Source: Thiomicrorhabdus sp.
Lineage (GTDB): Bacteria > Pseudomonadota > Gammaproteobacteria > Thiomicrospirales > Thiomicrospiraceae
Direction of reading: 5' to 3'
Length of the DNA stretch: 32,080 bases
NCBI GenBank assembly: GCA_021648625.1
Contig: JAKISK010000013.1
Span: forward strand, 1 to 32,080
In this document: positions 6,682 through 18,483 of the stretch, in pieces
How the letters are laid out: each line of letters opens with the position of its first letter
How positions within the stretch are numbered: position 1 is the first letter of the stretch
The notes under the pieces: generated by a model
Database searches by the model: none
What the model was told of the DNA's origin: nothing
The model's input: only the letters and a program-made list of their open reading frames with translations
Program-made: the position numbers and the translations under genes

Positions 6682-8286
6682 TTGATTTCAACCGCAAACA
6701 TTACCATGCAATTTGGTGAAAAACCCCTTTTTGAAAACATCTCTGTTAAATTTGGAGAAGGCAAACGTTACGGCCTAATTGGCGCTAATGGGTGTGGAAA
6801 ATCAACCTTTATGAAAATACTAGGGGGCGATTTAGAACAAACCAATGGCGTGGTGAGCATTGATGAAAACGTGCGCGTAGGTAAGTTAAAGCAAGATCAA
6901 TTTGCTTACGAAGAATACAGTGTAATCGACACCGTAATCATGGGTCAAGAAGAGCTGTGGGAAGTAAAGCGTGAGCGTGACCGTATTTACAGCTTACCCG
7001 CCATGAGCGAAACCGAAGGCATGTTGGTCGCAGACCTAGAAATACAATTTGGTGAAATGGACGGTTACACCGCCGAATCGCGTGCGGGAGAGCTATTACT
7101 TGGCCTAGAAATTCCTGTCGAACAGCATTTTGGACCCATGAGTGAAGTGGCACCCGGTTGGAAATTACGCGTGCTATTAGCGCAAGCACTGTTTGCAGAT
7201 CCCGATATTTTACTGCTCGATGAGCCAACCAACAACTTAGACATGAACACCATCCGTTGGTTAGAAAACGTGCTAAATGAACGCAAAAGCACCATGATCA
7301 TTATCTCGCATGATCGTCACTTCCTAAACAGCGTGTGTACCCACATGGCCGATTTAGACTATGGTGAACTGCGTGTTTACCCAGGAAACTACGATCAATA
7401 CATGACCGCTGCCGCCATGATTCAAGATCAACTACACTCCGATAACGCCAAAAAACAAACCCAAATTAATGATCTCAAAAGCTTTGTAAGCCGTTTTTCG
7501 GCCAATGCCTCCAAAGCAAAACAGGCCACGTCAAGAGCCAAATTGCTGGATAAAATAGAGCTAACCGAAATCAAAGCCTCCAGTCGAGTCAATCCCTTTA
7601 TACGTTTTGAGCAAGACAAAAAACTATTTCGTACCGCATTAGAAATCAAAAAACTCAACAAAACCTATTCGGACAACGAAGGGGACAACAACGAAGTGCT
7701 TAACAACCTAGAGCTAATGCTAGAAGTAAAAGAACGTTTAGCCGTGATAGGTCCCAACGGAGTTGGTAAAACCACCTTACTTAAATGTTTAATGGGCGAG
7801 ACAGAACTCACCTCGGGAACCATTAAATGGTCCGAAAATGTAAAGTTAGGCTATTACGCACAAGATCACGCCAGCGATTTTGAAGAAGATATGAGCTTAA
7901 TGGACTGGATGGGGCAGTGGAAGCAAAAAGGCGATGACGAACAATCCCTTCGTGCCGTGCTAGGGCGTTTATTATTCTCACAAAAAGACATCGATAAATC
8001 CGTTAAAGTTCTGTCAGGGGGCGAACAAGGGCGCATGTTATTTGGTAAGTTAATGCTGCAAAAACCAAATATTCTCATCATGGATGAACCCACCAATCAC
8101 CTAGACATGGAATCCATCGAATCGCTTAACCAAGCAATGATTGATTTTCCAGGCACCATTATCTTTGTTTCACACGATAGAGAGTTTGTATCATCCCTAG
8201 CAACACGCTTATTGGTACTAAACGACAACGATTACTTTGATTTTAGAGGTGATTATGAGTCCTATTTGTCTACATTAATTAATTGA
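6682..8286 (+). CDS. ybiT: ABC-F translation factor YbiT
   Basis: Soluble tandem-ATPase ABC-F protein; family members bind the ribosomal E site and regulate translation. At 534 residues it aligns along its whole length with my memory of E. coli YbiT, for example '[19 protein letters not shown]' and '[18 protein letters not shown]'. Nucleotide-binding domain 1 has Walker A 'GANGCGKST' (from residue 34) and '[11 protein letters not shown]' (about 178-188); domain 2 has 'GPNGVGKTT' (from 357), '[13 protein letters not shown]' and '[11 protein letters not shown]'. The start chosen is TTG 6682, with AGGA (6670-6673) 8 bases upstream and the N-terminus beginning like E. coli YbiT; the track start 6664 precedes the Shine-Dalgarno sequence. 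There are no transmembrane segments. It converges on the metallopeptidase gene. Confidence 0.93.
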
Positions 8287-8322
8287 TTATGATCGTTCTA
8301 CGATAGAGCAAATTGATTGCGA

Positions 8323-8353
8323 GGGGGGGGGATAAATTTTATCCCCCCCCCCC
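8323..8353. repeat. G9 / C11 inverted repeat hairpin
   Basis: Nine G (8323-8331), ATAAATTTTAT, then eleven C (8343-8353). GGGGGGGGGATAAA pairs with TTTATCCCCCCCCC, a stem of 13-14 bp with almost no loop. It lies between the convergent ybiT and metallopeptidase genes. It could act as a bidirectional transcription barrier, but no long T-run follows on either strand. Confidence 0.8.
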
Positions 8354-8429
8354 ATATCACCACAAAAAAAGACTGTTTTTAGTTTGAAAAGTTTGTTTAA
8401 GGGGGAGCGTCTCTGTTTTCTGTTTTTCC

Positions 8430-8444
8430 TAACGCCTAAATTAT
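8430..8444. repeat. attC-like repeat copy 1 (3' side of the metallopeptidase gene)
   Basis: TAACGCCTAAATTAT on the + strand; on the coding (-) strand it reads 'CGCATAATTTAGGCGTTAGG', which resembles the L'-R' end of integron attC sites (compare GCTTAACTCAAGCGTTAGA). It begins about 10 bases beyond the stop codon. No clear R'' partner was found. Confidence 0.35.
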
Positions 8445-8454
8445 GCGACTTAAT

Positions 8455-9183
8455 TTACACCTTAGTTTTTAAGCTAAAGACACTACTAAATTCTTTACCC
8501 TGCCGTACTTTTGACAACATGGAATACAACTCTTTAGCTGGATATGTAGCCAATATTTCTTGAACTGCGGCCTTTGCTGAACGGTAATTTTTAAGATTTT
8601 CTTCTTTGCTACTCGTCCAAAACTCACTCGGACTATTAAGTGTTTTTACCCTATTGATCTCTTGTTGGCTGAATAACTTATAATCAACCTTATAGTGATC
8701 TCGCAGGTCAACCTGCATTGCGATACCTTCATCAAACCAAGTTGGGATCTTGGTTTGGTAAGTCCAGTAACCTAATATTTCCCTCATTTGTGCATGCATT
8801 AATTCATGCGCAAATAAACTAACATTAATTTTTTGATGGTTAATAACGATATAATTTTTCCAAGGTGCGTTAAAAGCCTTACCTGGAAAATTTCCCAGCC
8901 CAAACTTTTTAGCATTATCTGGTGTTCCAGTTATAACGATTGTTGGCATAGCGGTAAAAGAACCATATTTATTTCTAATTCTCTCTTTTGATTCACTGAG
9001 TAAAATAAGTATTTTTTCAGATTCATTTTTTTCAAGATTTGAGTCTATATAAATATTTTCTGAGACATTATTAAAGTCTGAGTTTTCTATTGTTGAAAGC
9101 CAAAACACATGTGAATAAGCAAATGTTGCACCTGCAAATACAATAGCGACAAACCCAATTACGATTATAGCCAGTTTTTTCAT
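8455..9183 (-). CDS. Membrane-anchored HExxH zinc metallopeptidase, hypothetical
   Basis: A 242-residue protein with an N-terminal hydrophobic segment ('LAIIVIGFVAIVFAGATFAY') after MKK, so it is probably exported and anchored, or secreted. The catalytic signature is 'HELMH' (126-130 from the chosen start), followed 22 residues later by 'WFDEGIA' with the likely third zinc ligand E152, the gluzincin arrangement of 'peptidase MA-like' domains. I took ATG 9183 because AGGAGG lies 6-7 bases upstream; the track start at 9207 adds 8 residues ahead of that Shine-Dalgarno. The substrate is unknown. The gene is isolated, convergent with ybiT, and bracketed by near-identical 15-bp repeats 35-45 bases before its start and about 10 bases after its stop, which suggests a mobile cassette. 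A link to the adjacent exopolysaccharide locus is possible but unsupported. Confidence 0.75.
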   Translation of the reverse strand: MKKLAIIVIGFVAIVFAGATFAYSHVFWLSTIENSDFNNVSENIYIDSNLEKNESEKILILLSESKERIRNKYGSFTAMPTIVITGTPDNAKKFGLGNFPGKAFNAPWKNYIVINHQKINVSLFAHELMHAQMREILGYWTYQTKIPTWFDEGIAMQVDLRDHYKVDYKLFSQQEINRVKTLNSPSEFWTSSKEENLKNYRSAKAAVQEILATYPAKELYSMLSKVRQGKEFSSVFSLKTKV

Positions 9184-9352: not shown

Positions 9353-10204
9353 CTATTTCGTACCTAGATTATTTTCAATTTGAGCAATTTTATTTAACCT
9401 AAGCTGCTCGAACTCTATTGGTGATAAATACTCATTTGTACTATGAGGTCTATCGTGGTTGTAATAGCCGATATACTCACTTACGACACGCTTCATATGA
9501 TCGGCTTCTATTAAGCGTTTAAGTTGATAAATAACTTCTGTTTTCAATGTTTTAAAGAAGCTTTCTATCACGGCATTGTCCCAACAGTTCCCGCGACGAC
9601 TCATGCTTTGTTTCAGTCCCCAAGAATTTAGCAGTGTACGGTAGTCATTACTAATAAATTGACTCCCTTGGTCTGTATGTACCATTAAACCTTTCGGTGG
9701 ATTTCGACTCCATAAGGCTCGCTTAAGCGCGGTTTCCGTAAGTTCTGAGCGCATATTGTTTTCAAGTGACCAACCTACGACCTTGCGTGAATAAAGGTCT
9801 ATGTAGCAAGCAAGGTAAAGCTTTCCTTGTGTTGTTTTGATCTCGGTGATGTCTCCGACCCACACTTGATTGGGGTAGCTTACCTCAAACTCTCTATTAA
9901 GCAGGTTAGGTTGAATTCTTGAACTATTTGCTGGGGCAGTGCTTCCTTTTTTAAACTTGCGTTGTGTTTTTACGATTAATTCGAGTGTTTTCATTATGTA
10001 ACCAATCTTACGACGACTGAGAACAATCTTTTTTTTGTTGAAAAGGTGGTGCTTTATTTGACGTGTACCTCCGTTTCTTTTCAGTGCGTAGAACGCATCT
10101 TCAACTAGCTTATTGGTTTTTTGCTGTTGGGCTTCTTGTTTGGTTTTATTGAGTTTTGTCCAACTAAAATAGCTACTTTTTTGAAGTTCTAAAACGTGAA
10201 GCAT
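9353..10204 (-). CDS. IS3-family transposase OrfB (DDE integrase core)
   Basis: A 283-residue rve-type transposase. The DDE residues are visible in 'VGDITEIK', 'VHTDQGSQF' and 'NAVIESFFKTLKTE', with 'GNCWDNA' between them and the HTH_21-like N-terminal part 'GGTRQIKHHLFNKKK' typical of OrfB. The reading frame is actually open up to 10297, giving an N-terminal stretch '...KYAWIASHLEEYSLNV' ahead of ATG 10204, as in other IS3 OrfB proteins made by -1 frameshifting from orfA. The frame is intact, but without orfA's DNA-binding N-terminus it is unlikely to mobilise its own copy. Confidence 0.92.
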   Translation of the reverse strand: MLHVLELQKSSYFSWTKLNKTKQEAQQQKTNKLVEDAFYALKRNGGTRQIKHHLFNKKKIVLSRRKIGYIMKTLELIVKTQRKFKKGSTAPANSSRIQPNLLNREFEVSYPNQVWVGDITEIKTTQGKLYLACYIDLYSRKVVGWSLENNMRSELTETALKRALWSRNPPKGLMVHTDQGSQFISNDYRTLLNSWGLKQSMSRRGNCWDNAVIESFFKTLKTEVIYQLKRLIEADHMKRVVSEYIGYYNHDRPHSTNEYLSPIEFEQLRLNKIAQIENNLGTK

Positions 10205-10251
10205 GACGTTTAAACTGTATTCTTCGAGATGGCTGGCTATCCAAGCGTATT

Positions 10252-10347
10252 TCAGTTCTCGAGACTCGCGAAATACGCTGTTGCCTTTTTTAGGATGTCA
10301 CGTTCCATTTTGGTTTGTTTTAGTTCCGTTTTTAAGCATAAACTACA
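10252..10347 (-). pseudogene. IS3 orfA remnant (C-terminal part) with frameshift signal
   Basis: This frame reads '...LKTELKQTKMERDILKKATAYFASLEN' then TGA, the classic OrfA C-terminus. It contains A_AAA_AAG (10291-10285) in the right phase for -1 frameshifting into the orfB frame. The N-terminal two thirds (helix-turn-helix) are absent; the remnant begins directly after, and in frame with, the TAA of the preceding kinase-like gene. Confidence 0.8.
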
Positions 10348-11679
10348 TTACTTGTATCTTGATGACATATGTTTACTTATTACTCTCAAACATTCATTTA
10401 TAGGCACTTCTTCAGACTGATCAATATCAATCCAAAACACATTCGGCTTACTATCACAAAATAGCTTTAAGTTATTATTAACTTGAGCTTCGGTTTCTTT
10501 TAGTGTCATCTTAAGGTTCCTATTACAAATTACTTCTGGATTTTCTCCCAAACATATAACTAAATCAGGCTCTGGTATAAAAAATTGCGCTAATTTAATT
10601 ATCCACACGGGTAACTTGATGCGTTCTCTTTTGGAGCCAGTGAGATAGTCATAAAAATATGTATCAAACACCCAAATACATGATTTCTTTACTTTTTTAG
10701 GGTAAACTTTAATCCAATAACCGACTATATAATCAACTAAATAGTAGAGGAATAACATCATTGAAACAATAAAGCTCGATTTTTTTTGTGTATCGAGGGG
10801 GCTACTAGATCGTCTGTTTTTTTTATTACTCCATAATGTGGCTATACTTGGTATTAGATTAGGACGAGAGTGCTCATAATATAATTCGTTATGTGATGCT
10901 TCGTTGAGAACCTCCATTACCTTATTTATAACTGTCGTTTTACGTGTGCCATCAGCACCAAGAAAAGCTATCGTATAGCCAGGAGGGGAAAAGAAGCGGT
11001 AAGCTTTGAATAGCTTTAACTTTAAGTTTAACACCTTGGTTTTGAAGTGTTTAGTAAGTTGTTTTTGACCTAGTATTGCTAGCTTTGTTATAATTTTTGG
11101 ACTGTAATTACTTTGAAGCGCTTCCGATAGGTCGTCCAAAAAATCAACTGAGTATATTTTAGAAAGTTCCTGTCTATATAAATATTTATTTTTGCCCCAA
11201 GCTATTTTAGCTGGCTCAAAATATTTCAGTTGTATTTTCTTATTATTTAGAGCTTCTTTTAAAAATGCAATTAAATTTGAATCCTCATCATTTGCAACCT
11301 TTATACCATTGTGTGTATGAACTCTTGATAAAAGAAAATCAACTGGGAACATGGAGCTACTTTTATACGGTAATATTGATTCATGAACATCTATTTGCAA
11401 TGCATACCAGCAAGCAGCGTTAAAACCTGTAACGCAAATCCTAGGAGATAATTGCCCGTATCGTATAATAATTTCCCCTTCCGTTCTTTGCAAGACTCTA
11501 TATAAAGCTTTATAGAACCTATTAATGTCCTTGCTTTTCACAAGAATATCTAAATCACTTCCCCCTAATGAAGTTGGCAAAGTATCGTAATTTCTAAGAA
11601 CACAATACTGTATTTGTTGAGCGTTTAACTCAGTGAAAAAGGGCACAAGAAAAATCTTGTTATCGACTAAACTAGACAA
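10348..11679 (-). CDS. Nucleotidyltransferase-kinase fusion protein, paralogue 1 (degenerate P-loop)
   Basis: A 443-residue protein of unknown function. The N-terminal half resembles the uncharacterised nucleotidyltransferase fold, with an intact 'GGSDLDILV' (39-47). The C-terminal half resembles thymidylate-kinase-type P-loop kinases and is paralogous to 15408-16742. However, the Walker A reads GADGTRKTT (241-249): Arg246 replaces the invariant glycine (CGT, one base from GGT). The family 'FDRYYHD' motif reads 'FDTYFYD', losing the DR arginine. So the nucleotidyltransferase part looks competent and the kinase part compromised. The start is TTG 11679 with AAGGA 7 bases upstream. It is the last gene of the operon, 116 bases after the APH-like kinase, and its stop abuts the truncated IS; comparison with the paralogue suggests the C-terminus is nearly complete. 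Confidence 0.8.
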   Translation of the reverse strand: MSSLVDNKIFLVPFFTELNAQQIQYCVLRNYDTLPTSLGGSDLDILVKSKDINRFYKALYRVLQRTEGEIIIRYGQLSPRICVTGFNAACWYALQIDVHESILPYKSSSMFPVDFLLSRVHTHNGIKVANDEDSNLIAFLKEALNNKKIQLKYFEPAKIAWGKNKYLYRQELSKIYSVDFLDDLSEALQSNYSPKIITKLAILGQKQLTKHFKTKVLNLKLKLFKAYRFFSPPGYTIAFLGADGTRKTTVINKVMEVLNEASHNELYYEHSRPNLIPSIATLWSNKKNRRSSSPLDTQKKSSFIVSMMLFLYYLVDYIVGYWIKVYPKKVKKSCIWVFDTYFYDYLTGSKRERIKLPVWIIKLAQFFIPEPDLVICLGENPEVICNRNLKMTLKETEAQVNNNLKLFCDSKPNVFWIDIDQSEEVPINECLRVISKHMSSRYK

Positions 11680-11795
11680 TGCAGGTTCCTTTAATGTTTT
11701 AGCTTAAAAGTATCTAGGCAATAAATTATTATCACATTTTACCTACAAAACTAATTCTGCTCAGATATATAAATGGCGAACTTTTTTATATTGAA

Positions 11796-12890
11796 TCAAA
11801 TCAATGCAAAATTTTCATCAGATATTGCTATATTGATTACTGTAATTTTAGTGTGATAATCATCAAAATCAACACTACCCTCTTTATGACAAATAAAGAT
11901 CGATTTTAACAAATATATAACAATCATTATTTTTTTTTGAGACTCTGAAAATTTATTTAAATTTTTTACCTGATATTCCATATCAAACTGTCGAATAAGG
12001 CTCATATAAATATCCAAGTGAGTTTTTCGATTAACTAAACTCTCAACTTGATAAACAAAATGCAATACATCCATCCAAACCAAGCCAGAAAGATCTGCAT
12101 GCTCCCAGTCAAAAACAAAAAGCTCTCCACCTTGTTTTTTTCGAATATTCCATGGAGCAAAATCCCCATGCTCAATGGCTTGCATGATCGGAAAATTTTC
12201 AATTGACCCTAATGATTGATACACCCTGTCAATAACCTTCATCAGTCGTTGATCGCTCACAACAAGCTTCAAGTTCAACATCAATGACTCAATAGTATCC
12301 CAAAAACTTGTAACCTCATTTTTTACCAACGAATCAAGATAATGTAAGTGCGCTAAAGACAACAATTCCCCTGAACTTTTATTGGAGCCTACAGACTGTA
12401 TTGAATATGACATTTTCGGATTTTCAAACGTCCCTGAGGACAGTATTTGTGGAAAGTCACCGGCAACATTTTGACTCATAAGCACCTTAAGTACTTCAAC
12501 TTCATGCTCAACAACCTTGCGCGCAGCTGGTAACAATGCAATTCGTGCATAAGATAGCTCATCACCTTCTAAATTCATTATTTTTAAGGTTGACTTACTT
12601 CTAGGACCCACATCAGAAACAAGTACTCCAACCACTTTAATATTAGAAAGCTCAAGACTCTTTAACACCTCATTTAAATGCGGGCATAAGCGATTAATAC
12701 AGTCAATCTTCTCTATATAATTAAATTTTGATAATAAAGGTAAAAATATATAGTTAAAAAACTTATATATATGCCCTAATAGTCTCGACGGATAATACAT
12801 CTGCAATGCAGAGCGCATTACTCTGCCATTTTCAGTAGGTAGCAACAAACGAATCGAGCCATTTTTTCGCCTTAATACTAAGTAATTCAA
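11796..12890 (-). CDS. APH-like phosphotransferase, exopolysaccharide locus
   Basis: A 364-residue protein whose C-terminal half carries the aminoglycoside-phosphotransferase/choline-kinase catalytic signature 'HGDFAPWN' (241-248; D243 as base, N248 as metal ligand) and 'FVFDWEHADLSG' (D261, the DFG-equivalent). Such small-molecule kinases phosphorylate hydroxyl groups of sugars or amino alcohols; the substrate here is unknown. The N-terminal 100 residues are not recognised. TTG 12890 overlaps the TGA of the upstream flippase gene (TTGA), indicating translational coupling. It is one of three kinase-like proteins at the distal end of the locus, which suggests a phosphorylated glycan or a phosphorylated carrier intermediate. 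That is inference. Confidence 0.75.
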   Translation of the reverse strand: MNYLVLRRKNGSIRLLLPTENGRVMRSALQMYYPSRLLGHIYKFFNYIFLPLLSKFNYIEKIDCINRLCPHLNEVLKSLELSNIKVVGVLVSDVGPRSKSTLKIMNLEGDELSYARIALLPAARKVVEHEVEVLKVLMSQNVAGDFPQILSSGTFENPKMSYSIQSVGSNKSSGELLSLAHLHYLDSLVKNEVTSFWDTIESLMLNLKLVVSDQRLMKVIDRVYQSLGSIENFPIMQAIEHGDFAPWNIRKKQGGELFVFDWEHADLSGLVWMDVLHFVYQVESLVNRKTHLDIYMSLIRQFDMEYQVKNLNKFSESQKKIMIVIYLLKSIFICHKEGSVDFDDYHTKITVINIAISDENFALI

Positions 12891-14161
12891 GAGTGAGCCC
12901 TCGCTAAATTCTTCTGTTTTATAAAAAGTACAATCAAACCTGCCACTACGCCTGAAATTAATGCCAGCATAATCCCCGCTTCATGTAAACTAGAAACTGT
13001 AACCATCGCTACCATAATAGAGACCAAAGCCCACCAAAAGCTGGATACTGCTAACGTAGCAACGCTTCCCAAAACCCTATAATAAAAAGAACCTATTCTA
13101 TACAAATACATAAATAGGTAATACACTCCTTGAAATATAATCAAATAGGCAAACACACGATATTCACTACCATAAAAGAAAACGATAAGCCATTCACTAA
13201 AAAAAACAAGAACGACAATAAATAACATAAGAGCCAATGTGCCTAATAACGCCATTTTCTTTAGGTATACAGTCATCTTTTTATAGCCATATTTTTCAAA
13301 TTTCAAGGATGTTTGAACAATAATCACATTATCCATCCATTGAAAAAAAACATTAATCGGGCCGAGTAAATTTTGAATCGCCTTAATAGCCGCAGCAGCT
13401 TGAGCACCAATCATTCCTGCTCCAACAAGAATAACCCCTGAGCCACCTAACCACTGTAGCTGCCAAGAATAAAGATAGTCACGATTAACTCTCCAATATT
13501 TGACTAACAACCTTCTCGAATATCCAAAATTAGGCCTTAGCCTAAGGAAATATATTGTCAGAACGGCCGTTAAAAAAAATGTAATAAAGTACACCATAAA
13601 AGCTCTTTCAACACTGAGTTGCTCATTCCAAAACAACACAAATAAACATACAAACTGTCCTCCGTAAGCCACTATGTCAATAATGAGTACCGCTCTTGGA
13701 TTAGAAGTTGCATAAAGGTACCGCCTTAACCAGTCTTGAATCATAAACCCAAATACCGTAACGCCTATAATTAGGTGCAAAGATCGTAAACTAAGCTCTT
13801 CTGAAAAATAACCAATCAAAAATGTAAAAAGATAAACCAATATACTGGCCGCTAAAGAAACCAATAATGCATAGCCAAAATAACCTCGCACCAAAAAACT
13901 TTTATATCTTATTCTCTCTACGGGAGGAAGAATGGACATCATTTGAGCAACAACTAAAGATTGTAGGAATGTATTTGCATATAACAGTAACGCTAAGCCT
14001 ACTACATATATACCAAAGTCTTCAATACCCAAACCTCTTGCTAATAAAATACCAATACAAAAATTAGATGCAGAGACAAGCCCTTGATCAAGTAAAGACC
14101 ATAACTTAGAATTTTTAGAGGGGAGGTTTAGTTTTTTCATTTTATTTTTAACAAGAATCAC
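12887..14161 (-). CDS. Wzx-type polysaccharide flippase
   Basis: A 424-residue polytopic membrane protein with about 12 hydrophobic segments. The beginning 'LWSLLDQGLVSASNFCIGILLARGLGIEDFGIYV' is characteristic of the MOP-superfamily oligosaccharide flippase domain. The expected role is moving the undecaprenyl-linked repeat unit across the inner membrane. The track start GTG 14161 overlaps the TGA of the upstream glycosyltransferase gene (GTGA); ATG 14140 (MKKLNLPSKN) is a reasonable alternative seven codons later. The overall arrangement, a glycosyltransferase followed by Wzx, is standard for Wzx/Wzy-type loci, but no Wzy is present in the window. Confidence 0.85.
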   Translation of the reverse strand: MILVKNKMKKLNLPSKNSKLWSLLDQGLVSASNFCIGILLARGLGIEDFGIYVVGLALLLYANTFLQSLVVAQMMSILPPVERIRYKSFLVRGYFGYALLVSLAASILVYLFTFLIGYFSEELSLRSLHLIIGVTVFGFMIQDWLRRYLYATSNPRAVLIIDIVAYGGQFVCLFVLFWNEQLSVERAFMVYFITFFLTAVLTIYFLRLRPNFGYSRRLLVKYWRVNRDYLYSWQLQWLGGSGVILVGAGMIGAQAAAAIKAIQNLLGPINVFFQWMDNVIIVQTSLKFEKYGYKKMTVYLKKMALLGTLALMLFIVVLVFFSEWLIVFFYGSEYRVFAYLIIFQGVYYLFMYLYRIGSFYYRVLGSVATLAVSSFWWALVSIMVAMVTVSSLHEAGIMLALISGVVAGLIVLFIKQKNLARAHS

Positions 14162-15402
14162 TTCGGACTATAATCACTCGGTTTATTCTGTTCACCAATC
14201 TTTTTTACTAACTTTGTCCAGGTATGCGTTTTAGCATGTTTTTGTACCCGTTTAGAGGCATCATTTAAAACAGTTATATTGCTATAATAAGCCATCGCAA
14301 CTTCTAAATCCTTAACCAGATCCGCTTCACTCTTATTAATAACGGAAACGTTACCTACCTCCCCGCTCCCCAAAATTTGACCTGGCCCTCCTATGTCTAA
14401 GCAGATTATTGGTAATCCATGAGACATGGCCTCAAGAACAACCATTCCACCAGAGTCATGTAAACTAGGAAATAGCAACACATCATGCGCCATATAAAAG
14501 TCATCTATCTGCTCTTTAGAAACCCAATCGATCCAAGTTAGTTTTTCCTCAATTTCTAAATCTATAGCAATTTGTTCCCATAATTTTTTAGCCTTACCTG
14601 TTCCGACCATGGTAAGTGTTGCATTTGGAAATTTATGACTATACTCTGAAAATGCCCTTAACCCCAGCCCCATGCCTTTCCATTCAAGAAAGCGCCCAAT
14701 AAATAAAAATTTAACCCCCTTATCTACATTAAATTTTTTAAGTTTAGAATCAGGTAATTCACTTTGGCTTAACGCAATAGCTAATTGAATTGATACTTTT
14801 TTATGAAATCGCTTAGGTATTAAATTTTTAGTTTGCTCAGAAGTAACAAAAACATGAGTGCTGCGTGAAAATATCAACCACATTCTTGGGTCTAGCTTTA
14901 TAAACAAATTTAAGAAGTCTCTAACTAAGTCTGCAAACCATTGCGACCAACTGTAATGCTTTCTGAGTCTAAATGGCACAGATTCTCCACCTGCAACAGG
15001 CCCAAAGAAAAAAGGTTTATTTAAAAAAATCAAATAGCTTGGCTGTCTTACACCTACAAATGTTATATGTTGTACATAGTCAATATCTATATTTTTTATT
15101 AATCGTTTAGCCACTCGGTAAATACCAAGTTGCCATAGCCCATAATACATCTGCACCCCAAAAGGTATCTTTTTAGCCTTCAAAAATGGGGTAGGCAGAT
15201 CATAATAGATAAAATGTACATTTTTAGTATTGGGAATGCTATCACGTGCCCCCTCTATAGCCGTTTTATTATTAGCTCTAGTTAGGACATGTAATTCATG
15301 ACCCAATTTAGCAAGCTCACAGACCCAGGCCCAACCCACACCTGGCTCGGAACCTTTGTTGGGTTCACAAGCATAGGCTGAAAGTAATATTGTTTGGGGC
15401 AC
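14158..15402 (-). CDS. Glycosyltransferase family 4 (GT-B)
   Basis: A 414-residue cytoplasmic GT-B enzyme. The N-terminal acceptor domain starts 'ILLSAYACEPNKGSEPGVGW', with the glycine-rich loop common in GT4 proteins. The C-terminal donor domain has 'FLFIGRFLEWKGMGLGLRAF' and 'LHDSGGMVVLEAMSHGLP', the variant of the E-x7-E donor-binding motif. It should transfer a sugar, possibly GDP-fucose or GDP-mannose derived given the neighbours, onto the lipid-linked intermediate; specificity cannot be read from sequence. GTG 15402 is supported by AGGAG, 8 bases upstream, inside the 3' end of the preceding gene. It is the only recognisable glycosyltransferase in the locus. Confidence 0.88.
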   Translation of the reverse strand: MPQTILLSAYACEPNKGSEPGVGWAWVCELAKLGHELHVLTRANNKTAIEGARDSIPNTKNVHFIYYDLPTPFLKAKKIPFGVQMYYGLWQLGIYRVAKRLIKNIDIDYVQHITFVGVRQPSYLIFLNKPFFFGPVAGGESVPFRLRKHYSWSQWFADLVRDFLNLFIKLDPRMWLIFSRSTHVFVTSEQTKNLIPKRFHKKVSIQLAIALSQSELPDSKLKKFNVDKGVKFLFIGRFLEWKGMGLGLRAFSEYSHKFPNATLTMVGTGKAKKLWEQIAIDLEIEEKLTWIDWVSKEQIDDFYMAHDVLLFPSLHDSGGMVVLEAMSHGLPIICLDIGGPGQILGSGEVGNVSVINKSEADLVKDLEVAMAYYSNITVLNDASKRVQKHAKTHTWTKLVKKIGEQNKPSDYSPK

Positions 15403-15407
15403 TTCAA

Positions 15408-16742
15408 TTACTCCTTAATTTGCCGAAGAGCATTTCTTTCTAACTTTGACAAAAGTACAGACAACACTTGCTCACACGTTTTTTCTATTTCAACGTTTGT
15501 ATCAATAAGGTAAGCATTCTCTAAATTTCGAGGTAATGCCTCATATTTTTTCACCTGCTCTGTAGCAATGGAAAGTGACACCTCTCCTTTTCTCTCAACA
15601 AGTACCTGAGCAGGAGCTGTCAATACCAACCATATATCTGGCTTGGGTATAAACAACTCAAAAACTGACGTTAATCTAAAGCTATTAGGAAGCCTGTAAC
15701 GATAGGAATCTACTAACATATCATGATAATATCGATCAAATACGATCAACGTAGAAGACATTTTTTTAGGCCAAATAAACCGTAACCAACCGAACCAATA
15801 ATCTAAAGTAAAAAGGATTAATTTTAATACACCAAAGAAAAAAGATCTTGGTGACTGTGCATGAGGGTTTGCCACACTCGTACCTGCGTTAACCTTTCCA
15901 AAATGAGGGCGTAAATGGTAATATTGCGTTTTTCTAAATGCATCCCGAATACTATCCATCACAAAATCGATAATGGTCGACTTACCACTACCATCAGGGC
16001 CTAGAACTGCAATAACAAGCCCTGTTGGATTGAACGCTCTGCTCCATTTTCGTTGCATGTTTTTAACTTTGCTCCCCCAAGCATCCATCTTACTTTCCAT
16101 ATGGTTATGATTACAAGCATCTACCTGCAATACTCTAATGTTACTCTGAAACCAATTGAGGTTTCCTATCTGTATTGCTTTCTCCACATTCAGAGAGAGT
16201 TCCACACTAAATAACTCTTTCAAAGCCAATCGACATACGCTCTCATTCGATTCAAACAACAACTGAAAATATTCCAAGTGAGCGACATCAAAAGAGCTTT
16301 TAGCCAGTCTCTTTATTAAATAATATTTGAAATTGTCTTTTATACAGGGAACCCATAAACCATCAGAATTTTTAACTTTATTGTGTAAAACTTTTTTATT
16401 TTTTAACCATAACTGTCCATCTGTTCGGTAGTCATAGCATGCATCCAATGCAATACAGGCAAGCTCCATTCCAAACTGCATACCAAACACATAATATGTA
16501 GCAGATATTTCATAACGTAAAACCTGCAAGAGCCTTGCTCTCCTTAATGCATTTTTTTTCGAAAATAACAGCTCAAGTTTGCAAAAGTCAGCCTCTGAAA
16601 CCATAAAACCAACATCAGAATCAATTGTCTCAGGGTAGCCATTTACATTTCCTAAAAGCACATAGTCAATTTGATTTTTTTCAAGCTCATTACAAAACTC
16701 ATAAAACATTTCAATACATTTATTTTTTATACCCTGCGACAT
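15408..16742 (-). CDS. Nucleotidyltransferase-kinase fusion protein, paralogue 2 (degenerate NTase motif)
   Basis: A 444-residue paralogue of 10348-11679. The C-terminal kinase-like domain is canonical: Walker A 'GPDGSGKST' (248-256), 'FDRYYHDML' (335-343) resembling the dTMP-kinase DR(Y/H) motif, and 'PKPDIWLVLTAP', the strand-5 pattern of nucleoside monophosphate kinases. The N-terminal half keeps the general fold ('QIDYVLLGNVNGYPETIDSDVGFMV'), but the catalytic GSDxD reads DSDVG, losing the second Asp. So here the kinase looks active and the nucleotidyltransferase inactive, the reverse of paralogue 1. ATG 16742 has AAGGA upstream. The 86-base gap from epsI shows no terminator. The substrate is unknown; a role in nucleotide metabolism as a true dTMP kinase is unlikely given the context. 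Confidence 0.8.
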   Translation of the reverse strand: MSQGIKNKCIEMFYEFCNELEKNQIDYVLLGNVNGYPETIDSDVGFMVSEADFCKLELLFSKKNALRRARLLQVLRYEISATYYVFGMQFGMELACIALDACYDYRTDGQLWLKNKKVLHNKVKNSDGLWVPCIKDNFKYYLIKRLAKSSFDVAHLEYFQLLFESNESVCRLALKELFSVELSLNVEKAIQIGNLNWFQSNIRVLQVDACNHNHMESKMDAWGSKVKNMQRKWSRAFNPTGLVIAVLGPDGSGKSTIIDFVMDSIRDAFRKTQYYHLRPHFGKVNAGTSVANPHAQSPRSFFFGVLKLILFTLDYWFGWLRFIWPKKMSSTLIVFDRYYHDMLVDSYRYRLPNSFRLTSVFELFIPKPDIWLVLTAPAQVLVERKGEVSLSIATEQVKKYEALPRNLENAYLIDTNVEIEKTCEQVLSVLLSKLERNALRQIKE

Positions 16743-16828
16743 GCAATTCAGTGTCCTTTTAAAAGTTATTTAAGCTAAATATTCATGCTTTTTGTATAAA
16801 AAAGAGAATAAAAAAACTTCTTTATTAT

Positions 16829-17524
16829 TTACAACGCTACAGCTCTGCCAAAAACAAACTCTTTTTGCTTAACATCAAGTTGATTAAACAAGGCTTTAAT
16901 AAAATCATCCTGATTTTGATAAGCAAGCTCAACATCTTCTGTTATCGAAGAAACTCTAAATAGTAATCCATCAGGAATCTTCCCTGAAAAACCATATTTC
17001 AGTTGAATTAATTTTCTACTCACGCCAGGTAAAGTAACTTTATCTCCAATCACTATCCAATAAGTAATCGGCTCAACTCTCCCTGGTGCGGTGGCTAAAA
17101 GCCTGCGAACTAATAACGTTCTCTCTGCATCCAGCTTTATTTTTTCATCTCTAATATGAGTAATTTGAAACCCTTGAGCAGGATAACAAAACTCAGGACG
17201 ATGAACCTGATTTTGGTCACTACTTTGATCTGTCCCATAGGCTAAAGATAAAAAAACATCGTCACTGTTTTTATTCTTATAGTGCCTTTCCAGAATGTCT
17301 GAATAAATTTCATTTAAACTCTCTTCAACATCAGGTGCTTTAATTAAAGCCAGCTCTATTTTACTGGCCTTCCAATCACCTAGTTGTTTTGGAACAATGC
17401 TCTTTAATGATTCTTGGTTTTTTAAATTGGCCATATACTCAGTCGGCTTTAAATAATTTACGGTAAAGTATGAAAAAACCATCAAAATTGAAATTATTAT
17501 TACAGGCAGATTAAACATTTTCAT
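16829..17524 (-). CDS. epsI: Exosortase-associated protein EpsI
   Basis: A 231-residue EpsI-family protein: one N-terminal membrane segment ('LPVIIISILMVFSYFTVNYL') then a periplasmic domain. The hallmark is 'HRPEFCYPAQGF', the family's H-x-x-E-x-C-Y-P-x-x-G signature, followed by 'RRLLATAPGRVEPITYWIVIG'. EpsI accompanies or is fused to exosortases and is needed for exopolysaccharide production in methanolan-type loci; its biochemical role is unresolved. I chose ATG 17524, which has GAGG six bases upstream; the track GTG 17536 precedes that site. It overlaps the end of xrtB by 14 bases, so the two are translationally coupled. Confidence 0.88.
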   Translation of the reverse strand: MKMFNLPVIIISILMVFSYFTVNYLKPTEYMANLKNQESLKSIVPKQLGDWKASKIELALIKAPDVEESLNEIYSDILERHYKNKNSDDVFLSLAYGTDQSSDQNQVHRPEFCYPAQGFQITHIRDEKIKLDAERTLLVRRLLATAPGRVEPITYWIVIGDKVTLPGVSRKLIQLKYGFSGKIPDGLLFRVSSITEDVELAYQNQDDFIKALFNQLDVKQKEFVFGRAVAL

Positions 17525-18386
17525 TTTGACCCTCACTTTTTTTCATTTTTTTAGAAAGCCACCTTAAAAAAGTATCCGTAAAAATAATAAAGACCAAAGC
17601 AACAAAAAACAGTACAAAACCAGCAAAGTCATGTAAAAAACCTTGCCCAGCCTCATCGCCATAGTGAAAAGTAATTAATACCAAAACAATAACCCTTATC
17701 ACATTCGCAATAAAAGCGATTGGAACAATAAGAATGGCTAATGTTATATTTCTAAGTGCGGAAGTGCTTTTAATTAGATATAAATAAAGCAGTCCCATCG
17801 CTTCTAAAGAGATAATCGTGTGTACTCCAGCACATGCATCCGCTACCAACAATTTATAATAACCAATTTGTAATATCACGCCTGTTCGAGCGATTGGATA
17901 ATCAAAAAAATGAAGTATATTTTCAGATACATAGGAAACGGCTATTTTTAACGGTAACGTTATCATTGCTAAAACAGCGCCAGGAATAGGAACTAAAAAC
18001 AATAAAAATAAAATAGGGAACCATAATCTTTTTACACTAGAATATCCAAAAAAAGCTAGAAAAAATCCAAATAGTAAAAAAAACTGTGATAAAACGGCAA
18101 ACTCTAGTAGGCTTTGTGATTTTCCGATAATGTATAAAAATGCACTCATTAACATACATAAATAACCCATAACTTTACTAGATGATGTACTGTCATTAGG
18201 GTCTAAAGACTTCCAATTACTCCAAAATAAAAAAATAACGATTGCAAAAACAATTGGCCCATGTGCTTGTTCATCGGTTACCCATACTTCATTGAATAAT
18301 TGAGCATATATAGACCAATAAAGCAGTACAAAAGCAGCTAAAAAAGGGACAATAATTGAAAGTTTTGTTATTTCAACCGTATTCAT
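17511..18386 (-). CDS. xrtB: Exosortase (XrtB type)
   Basis: Polytopic inner-membrane cysteine protease/transpeptidase proposed to process PEP-CTERM sorting signals. About eight hydrophobic helices carry the exosortase catalytic set: Cys in 'VADACAGVHTI' (residue 185 from the chosen start), Arg in 'NVIRVIVLV' (231) and His in 'GFLHDFAGF' (252). The B type is inferred from a separate epsI and the epsDLEFG set rather than from subtype-specific residues. Start: ATG 18386 begins 'MNTVEITKLS' close to the first helix but has a poor Shine-Dalgarno; GTG 18428 and TTG 18419 are alternatives. No PEP-CTERM protein is present in this window. Confidence 0.85.
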   Translation of the reverse strand: MNTVEITKLSIIVPFLAAFVLLYWSIYAQLFNEVWVTDEQAHGPIVFAIVIFLFWSNWKSLDPNDSTSSSKVMGYLCMLMSAFLYIIGKSQSLLEFAVLSQFFLLFGFFLAFFGYSSVKRLWFPILFLLFLVPIPGAVLAMITLPLKIAVSYVSENILHFFDYPIARTGVILQIGYYKLLVADACAGVHTIISLEAMGLLYLYLIKSTSALRNITLAILIVPIAFIANVIRVIVLVLITFHYGDEAGQGFLHDFAGFVLFFVALVFIIFTDTFLRWLSKKMKKSEGQNENV

Positions 18387-18483
18387 TTTATTAAAAACTT
18401 TATTGTTTATTAAGTTCAAACCATCCACCCTTTTTTAACCAAACTCAAGCTTACATTTACGTATACCGTATTGCCGTTAAACA

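Follow-up and report, generated by a model that had tools for sequence, protein, structure and literature searches.

Two genes in a 32,080-nucleotide stretch of Thiomicrorhabdus sp. DNA (contig JAKISK010000013.1 of assembly GCA_021648625.1; the whole stretch is referred to below as the window) each encode a protein with a nucleotidyltransferase (NTase)-like N-terminal half and a thymidylate kinase (TMK)-like C-terminal half, an architecture that we abbreviate to NTK. One copy, P0001, has lost the motifs of its kinase half, which has been released from constraint while its NTase half has not; the other, P0002, retains a complete kinase site and departs from the family at one NTase aspartate. 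Since the two copies together hold one complete set of active sites, we propose that P0001 may provide the NTase and P0002 the kinase activity of a single phospho-modification complex—an explanation that we consider quite plausible, if short of probable. The two genes are:

10348..11679, minus strand: P0001, NTK of 443 amino acids (aa) with an intact NTase site (D42, D44, D97) and a degenerate kinase site (R246, T340, G348, N388)
15408..16742, minus strand: P0002, NTK of 444 aa with an intact kinase site and glycine for the second NTase aspartate (D45G)

Active-site losses in the paired genes

An earlier, sequence-only reading of the window had proposed two fusions of about 444 aa with complementary losses of active-site motifs. 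The genes and their motif strings were found as described: both proteins are full-length, with 25% identity in an alignment of 401 columns (E 2e-26), P0001 reading GGSDLDILV in the NTase half, GADGTRKTT at the P-loop and FDTYFYD further on, and P0002 reading IDSDVGFMV, GPDGSGKST and FDRYYHD. The losses themselves proved unequal. The kinase half of P0001 carries G246R, R340T, D348G and K388N (own numbering) and has also lost E390; with D348, K388 and E390 gone as well, the damage is broader than first noted, and this half is, as judged by its motifs, degenerate, more firmly so than in the first description. The P-loop and DR motif of P0002 are complete. Its putative NTase loss is a single-residue call resting on D45G, with D43, D100 and the nearby D41 retained. 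Both the R246 codon of P0001 (CGT, window 10942-10944) and the G45 codon of P0002 (GGT, window 16608-16610) are a single base change from coding for the residue typical of the family. P0001 starts at a TTG with AAAGGA upstream.

Near-invariance of the lost positions

Whole genomes, plasmids and a scan of genome contigs supplied the homologues, of which 81 full-length sequences were aligned (positions in P0002 numbering). The NTase DxD and a third aspartate are almost invariant over many phyla: D43 and D45 are each retained in 75 of the 77 homologues with letters at the position, and D100 in 80 of 81. In the kinase half, the family residue is kept in 79 (G253), 80 (K254), 79 (R337), 77 (D345) and 80 (K385) of the 81 sequences. 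P0001 has arginine at G253, threonine at R337, glycine at D345, asparagine at K385 and lysine at E387, while P0002 departs, among these motif positions, at D45 only; the one other exception at D45 is L087. Because the lost positions are near-invariant among homologues, the losses exceed free variation, which had been considered as an alternative and is thereby ruled out. Single-copy loci with the same degeneration, the other circumstance under which the paired losses would have meant little, are rare.

Selective release of the P0001 kinase half

Branch lengths were fitted separately for the NTase and kinase halves on one tree with the motif columns removed, and each of 31 tips was tested by a likelihood-ratio test (LRT) for departure from the common kinase:NTase branch ratio. 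P0001 showed the largest departure of all tips, its kinase half reaching 4.0x the expected length (LRT 18.9), and L089a, the other kinase-dead protein, came second in the same direction (3.2x, LRT 14.5); the NTase halves of both are slow. The intact proteins L066, L016 and L018 also depart significantly, and single LRT values are not to be over-read: it is the rank of the two kinase-dead proteins that carries weight. Relative-rate counts for P0001 and L089a were 34:16 and 35:18 in the kinase half, and 3:3 and 5:10 in the NTase half. Compared with six outgroups, the kinase half of P0001 is 36–48% identical versus 55–60% for its intact sister L080, the NTase halves of the two being about equal in this respect; the NTase-half branch measures 0.245 in P0001 versus 0.519 in L080. 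The kinase half of P0001 has thus been selectively released and its NTase half constrained, so that P0001 is not a uniformly decaying gene.

A second pair with a predicted kinase-dead member

Flavobacterium luteum carries a tandem NTK pair in a polysaccharide locus (L089). One copy (7745-9085) has the degenerate kinase motifs GEQSSRKR and FDGYYYD alongside an intact SDLDIIV, the other (9362-10672) is intact in both halves, and the two lie in different subclades, like P0001 and P0002. By its motifs, this is a second, independent pair with a putatively kinase-dead member. To compare pairs with singles, we excluded the large genome scan, whose search pattern, an intact P-loop, biases it against copies with a dead kinase. 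By our own count of about 40 kinase domains from searches independent of an intact P-loop, L160 alone is dead; this places a dead kinase in 2/2 same-locus full-length pairs versus roughly 1/40 singles. Fisher's reasoning gives about 0.004, or about 0.05 without the pair that raised the question, so that the association of kinase-dead copies with same-locus pairs is suggestive. Two unlinked NTK copies, all intact, occur in Xylanibacter and in a Burkholderiales genome, and in Zobellia (L057) a fused and a free-standing kinase lie about 9 kb apart, both intact.

Origin of the pair in an exosortase locus

The sequence-only reading had placed the losses after a duplication, and the tree contradicts this. 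P0001 groups with the Bacteroidales protein L080 (49% identity), which has both sites intact, and P0002 with the betaproteobacterial L012-L016 and L036 (39–44% identity); the two clades are deeply separated and anciently diverged, ruling out a recent in-situ duplication. The genes surrounding the pair are:

9353..10345, minus strand: IS3-type transposase orfB with an orfA remnant, the remnant beginning about 12 bp past the P0001 stop
11796..12890, minus strand: P0003, APH-like phosphotransferase (HGDFAPWN and DWE motifs, from an alignment)
12887..14161, minus strand: oligosaccharide flippase-like protein (in L014-L016 a single gene with the APH partner; PF01943 weak in a fused homologue)
14158..15402, minus strand: GT4 glycosyltransferase of the ACEPNKGSEPGVGW type (PF00534, E 4e-27), a recurrent module partner
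16829..17536, minus strand: EpsI, B-type exosortase-associated protein (NF045609, 249.8 bits, cut-off 220)
17511..18428, minus strand: exosortase B, XrtB (TIGR03113, 335.7 bits, cut-off 275)

The order XrtB-EpsI-P0002-GT4-flippase-APH is closely matched in L014 and L015 (the latter with Gmd and Fcl in between), and its P0002-GT4-flippase-APH part also in L016 and, more loosely, in L012; a P0001-type copy was not found within the stretches read of L012-L016. We read P0002-GT4-flippase-APH as the inherited cassette, behind which P0001 was evidently added. In P0003 the ATP-binding lysine is replaced by arginine (K115R), a change common to the flippase–APH fusions L014-L016 that marks P0003 as the cognate partner of P0002; decay of P0003, which the same change might have indicated, is ruled out because the change is shared.

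The cassette was likely acquired horizontally, as it is AT-rich (GC 31–37% over window 10348-18428 versus 41–46% in flanking housekeeping genes) and NTK is absent from all 62 relatives examined in the source organism's family. Several of these relatives carry XrtB, and the existence of XrtB-bearing family genomes without NTK identifies the cassette as accessory to the exosortase locus. The locus otherwise resembles XrtB/EpsI-B exopolysaccharide loci of the methanolan type, with Wza-Wzc-CpsD-XrtB-EpsI followed by a cassette, as in L012 and L014. Partial copies of the IS3 element at window 9353-10345 (76–98% identity) are present on four other contigs, in one case at the contig start.

A recurrent polysaccharide-locus module

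The APH-like kinase that the sequence-only reading had pointed out beside the pair turned out to be a recurrent partner of NTK. Among 92 kinase-bearing open reading frames, an APH-like gene (HGDFAPWN, DWE) lies within 100 bp in 47 cases, up to 3 kb away in another 15, and is fused to NTK in 5; an unbiased search of Flavobacteriaceae and Bacteroidota yielded eight further proteins with APH fused before NTK (about 740–820 aa). All 85 APH-like sequences compared carry the catalytic H, D, N, D and E without exception. Of 66 loci, 36 have a GT4 bearing the ACEPN-GSEPGVGW signature no more than 4 kb from NTK. Fusions unite NTK, APH and GT4 (L085, L128), NTK and GT4 (L084, L086), APH and GT4 (L060), and NTK and a hexapeptide transferase (L024), and flippase and APH are one gene in L014-L016. 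Further neighbours of NTK include glycosyltransferases, Wzy-type proteins, flippases and GDP-fucose genes, and the module is found in Pseudomonadota, Bacteroidota, Nitrospirota, Verrucomicrobiota, Acidobacteriota, Cyanobacteriota, Bacillota and more phyla. Where existing annotations were seen, these genes were called 'hypothetical protein' or 'phosphotransferase', in polymer loci. NTK plus an APH-like kinase, often with a GT4 and a flippase, constitutes a widespread polysaccharide-locus module that is apparently undescribed.

Several further arrangements were recorded. The triple fusions at L128 1-2670 (minus) and L085 3-3533 join NTK, APH-like kinase and GT4 in one protein (open frames of about 1176 aa), and an initiating sugar transferase (PF02397, Bac_transf) is the fusion partner of NTK in L055 1-1932 and L079 6738-8957. 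A free-standing kinase half of about 200 aa occurs in L057, L059, L064, L069, L074 and L083, accompanied in the same locus—in all but L057—by an NTase-like gene, also free-standing, of about 350 aa.

Relation to known families

Pfam detects only the TMK-like C half in P0001 and P0002. The PF02223 profile scored 27.9 bits for P0002, just over the cut-off of 27, and 20 bits for P0001, under it; TIGR00041 scores (17.8 and 22.1 bits for P0001 and P0002) were both far below the cut-off of 83.25. Confident AlphaFold models (pLDDT 92.9 for P0001, 95.2 for P0002) show the TMK fold in both C halves (Foldseek E ~1e-7), with TMKs of S. aureus and Aquifex as structural matches (TM-score on the target mostly 0.7–0.77). 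The matches listed by the structure search are all TMKs or NadR, since the C half dominates, and a NadR-type fusion (NMN adenylyltransferase plus kinase) was rejected, 1lw7 giving TM-scores of only 0.27/0.33 at a root-mean-square deviation of 15. With thymidylate kinase, NTK has the C-half fold, P-loop and DR(Y/H) motif in common, but it reads DxLVDPxRYR after DRY, where true TMKs have SSxAYQ, and sits in polysaccharide loci.

For the NTase half, weak PF14907 matches occurred in 3 of 24 NTK members and DUF4269 matches were likewise weak, none above any cut-off; PF04991 (LicD) was not among the families reported for these 24 proteins at an E threshold of 0.1. There were no Pfam matches to free-standing versions of this half, and relatives of F. 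luteum, searched with PF14907, gave no match either. NTK shares the DxD and third aspartate with NTP_transf_5 (PF14907) and LicD (PF04991), but LRN-like residues replace their hG[GS] element. LicD-type proteins, which belong to the NTase superfamily, draw on CDP conjugates when capsules are assembled (PMC11666461), and LicD may serve as the closest analogy for the NTase half, as distinct from a family to which it belongs.

The APH partners share the HxDxxxxN and DxE motifs of APH/choline kinase-like proteins (PF01636, PF01633), and several pass PF01636 (L076 with 42.4 and L025 with 27.7 bits; P0003 scores 12.7 against a cut-off of 23.2). They differ by a near-constant tryptophan in HGDFAPWN, by their polysaccharide-locus context and by fusions to NTK, GT4 or flippase. 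No curated family spanning the whole NTK protein was found in Pfam- and TIGR-type profile searches of P0001 and P0002, and open-access text yielded no paper on this combination of genes and nothing relevant on TMK-like proteins in polysaccharide or exosortase loci.

A proposed division of labour and its rivals

In the scenario that we propose, P0001, stemming from another NTK subclade, would have joined behind the P0002-GT4-flippase-APH cassette, apparently without an APH of its own. With both copies present, the kinase half of P0001 would have been freed to decay to a structural pseudokinase, selection still acting on the NTase half, and P0002 would have retained its kinase and given up the second of the catalytic aspartates in its NTase half. 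The module may build a phosphate-linked group on, or attach it to, a lipid-linked unit of the polymer: APH would phosphorylate the hydroxyl of an alcohol or sugar, the NTase-fold half would activate or transfer the phosphorylated group, as LicD-type enzymes do with CDP conjugates, the TMK-like half would add a further phosphate or recycle the released nucleoside monophosphate, and the lipid-linked unit would be flipped after these phosphate steps. The fullest form of the proposal includes catalytic death, physical pairing and a chemistry that we infer: an obligate P0001-P0002 heteromer, each partner with one active site and one dead domain, acting in an undescribed phospho-modification pathway for exported polysaccharide (APH kinase, NTase-TMK, GT4 and flippase). 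This we regard as possible but doubtful.

Several observations weigh against the division of labour. P0001 stands at the cassette end and abuts the IS3 remnant; the D41 and D43 of P0002 could form a shifted DxD; the NTase half of P0002, searched for a significant release in the rate tests, showed none across the domain (LRT 0.35); in F. luteum both sites survive in the partner copy, so the losses there are not reciprocal; and the source assembly is fragmented and 79.6% complete. Degenerate copies also occur singly in their genomes: L087 has lost the NTase DxD (NELGIMV), L079 has A43 and A100, and L160 has lost the NTase and kinase motifs alike, so the scaffold can persist without activity or partner. 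The notion that NTase loss marks pairs is ruled out by L087 and L079, that of kinase loss happening only in pairs is broken by L160, and the unlinked two-copy genomes described above are intact. The complementarity of the predicted losses is not a rule across the family, and reciprocal degeneration as a general principle is not supported.

Two rival explanations are serious. P0001 could be a decaying leftover of a second, IS3-truncated cassette that had lost its APH, with D45G mild or neutral and P0002 doing all the work. The place of P0001 at the cassette end, with the orfA remnant about 12 bp past its stop, fits such a history, as does the absence of its own APH, which directly follows NTK in L080, L066 and L081; moreover, L012-L016 manage without a P0001-type gene. 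However, the P0001 NTase half is conserved at least as much as that of L080, only the kinase half is fast, and all 443 codons are open, with no stop or frameshift. We judge the leftover explanation unlikely. The second rival, to our mind rather improbable, has P0002 still bifunctional through metal binding by D43, D100 and D41, P0001 being an extra NTase or a pseudokinase regulator as opposed to a needed complement. It draws on the presence of D41 in P0002, L012, L015, L016 and L033 and on the unreleased NTase half of P0002; against it, 75 of the 77 homologues with letters there retain D45, whether D41 is present or not.

In a third rival explanation, the N-terminal half could be non-catalytic in most members and NTK a scaffold placing the kinase on assembly enzymes, the losses being scaffold drift. 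L160, kept despite the loss of both sites and fused to an acyltransferase, is possibly such a pure scaffold, and the many NTK fusions to other enzymes agree with this idea; the near-invariance of the DxD and third aspartate over many phyla does not, and we think it highly improbable. L160 itself (1027-2802, minus) is a 591-aa gammaproteobacterial homologue with a hexapeptide-acyltransferase-like C-terminal part.

For the family as a whole, the many fusions tie phosphate chemistry to chain assembly and flipping, a connection that has apparently never been assayed. Within it, nature has already supplied separation-of-function variants in the form of the half-dead copies, which hint at the half that is dispensable when a partner is present and make the pathway testable.

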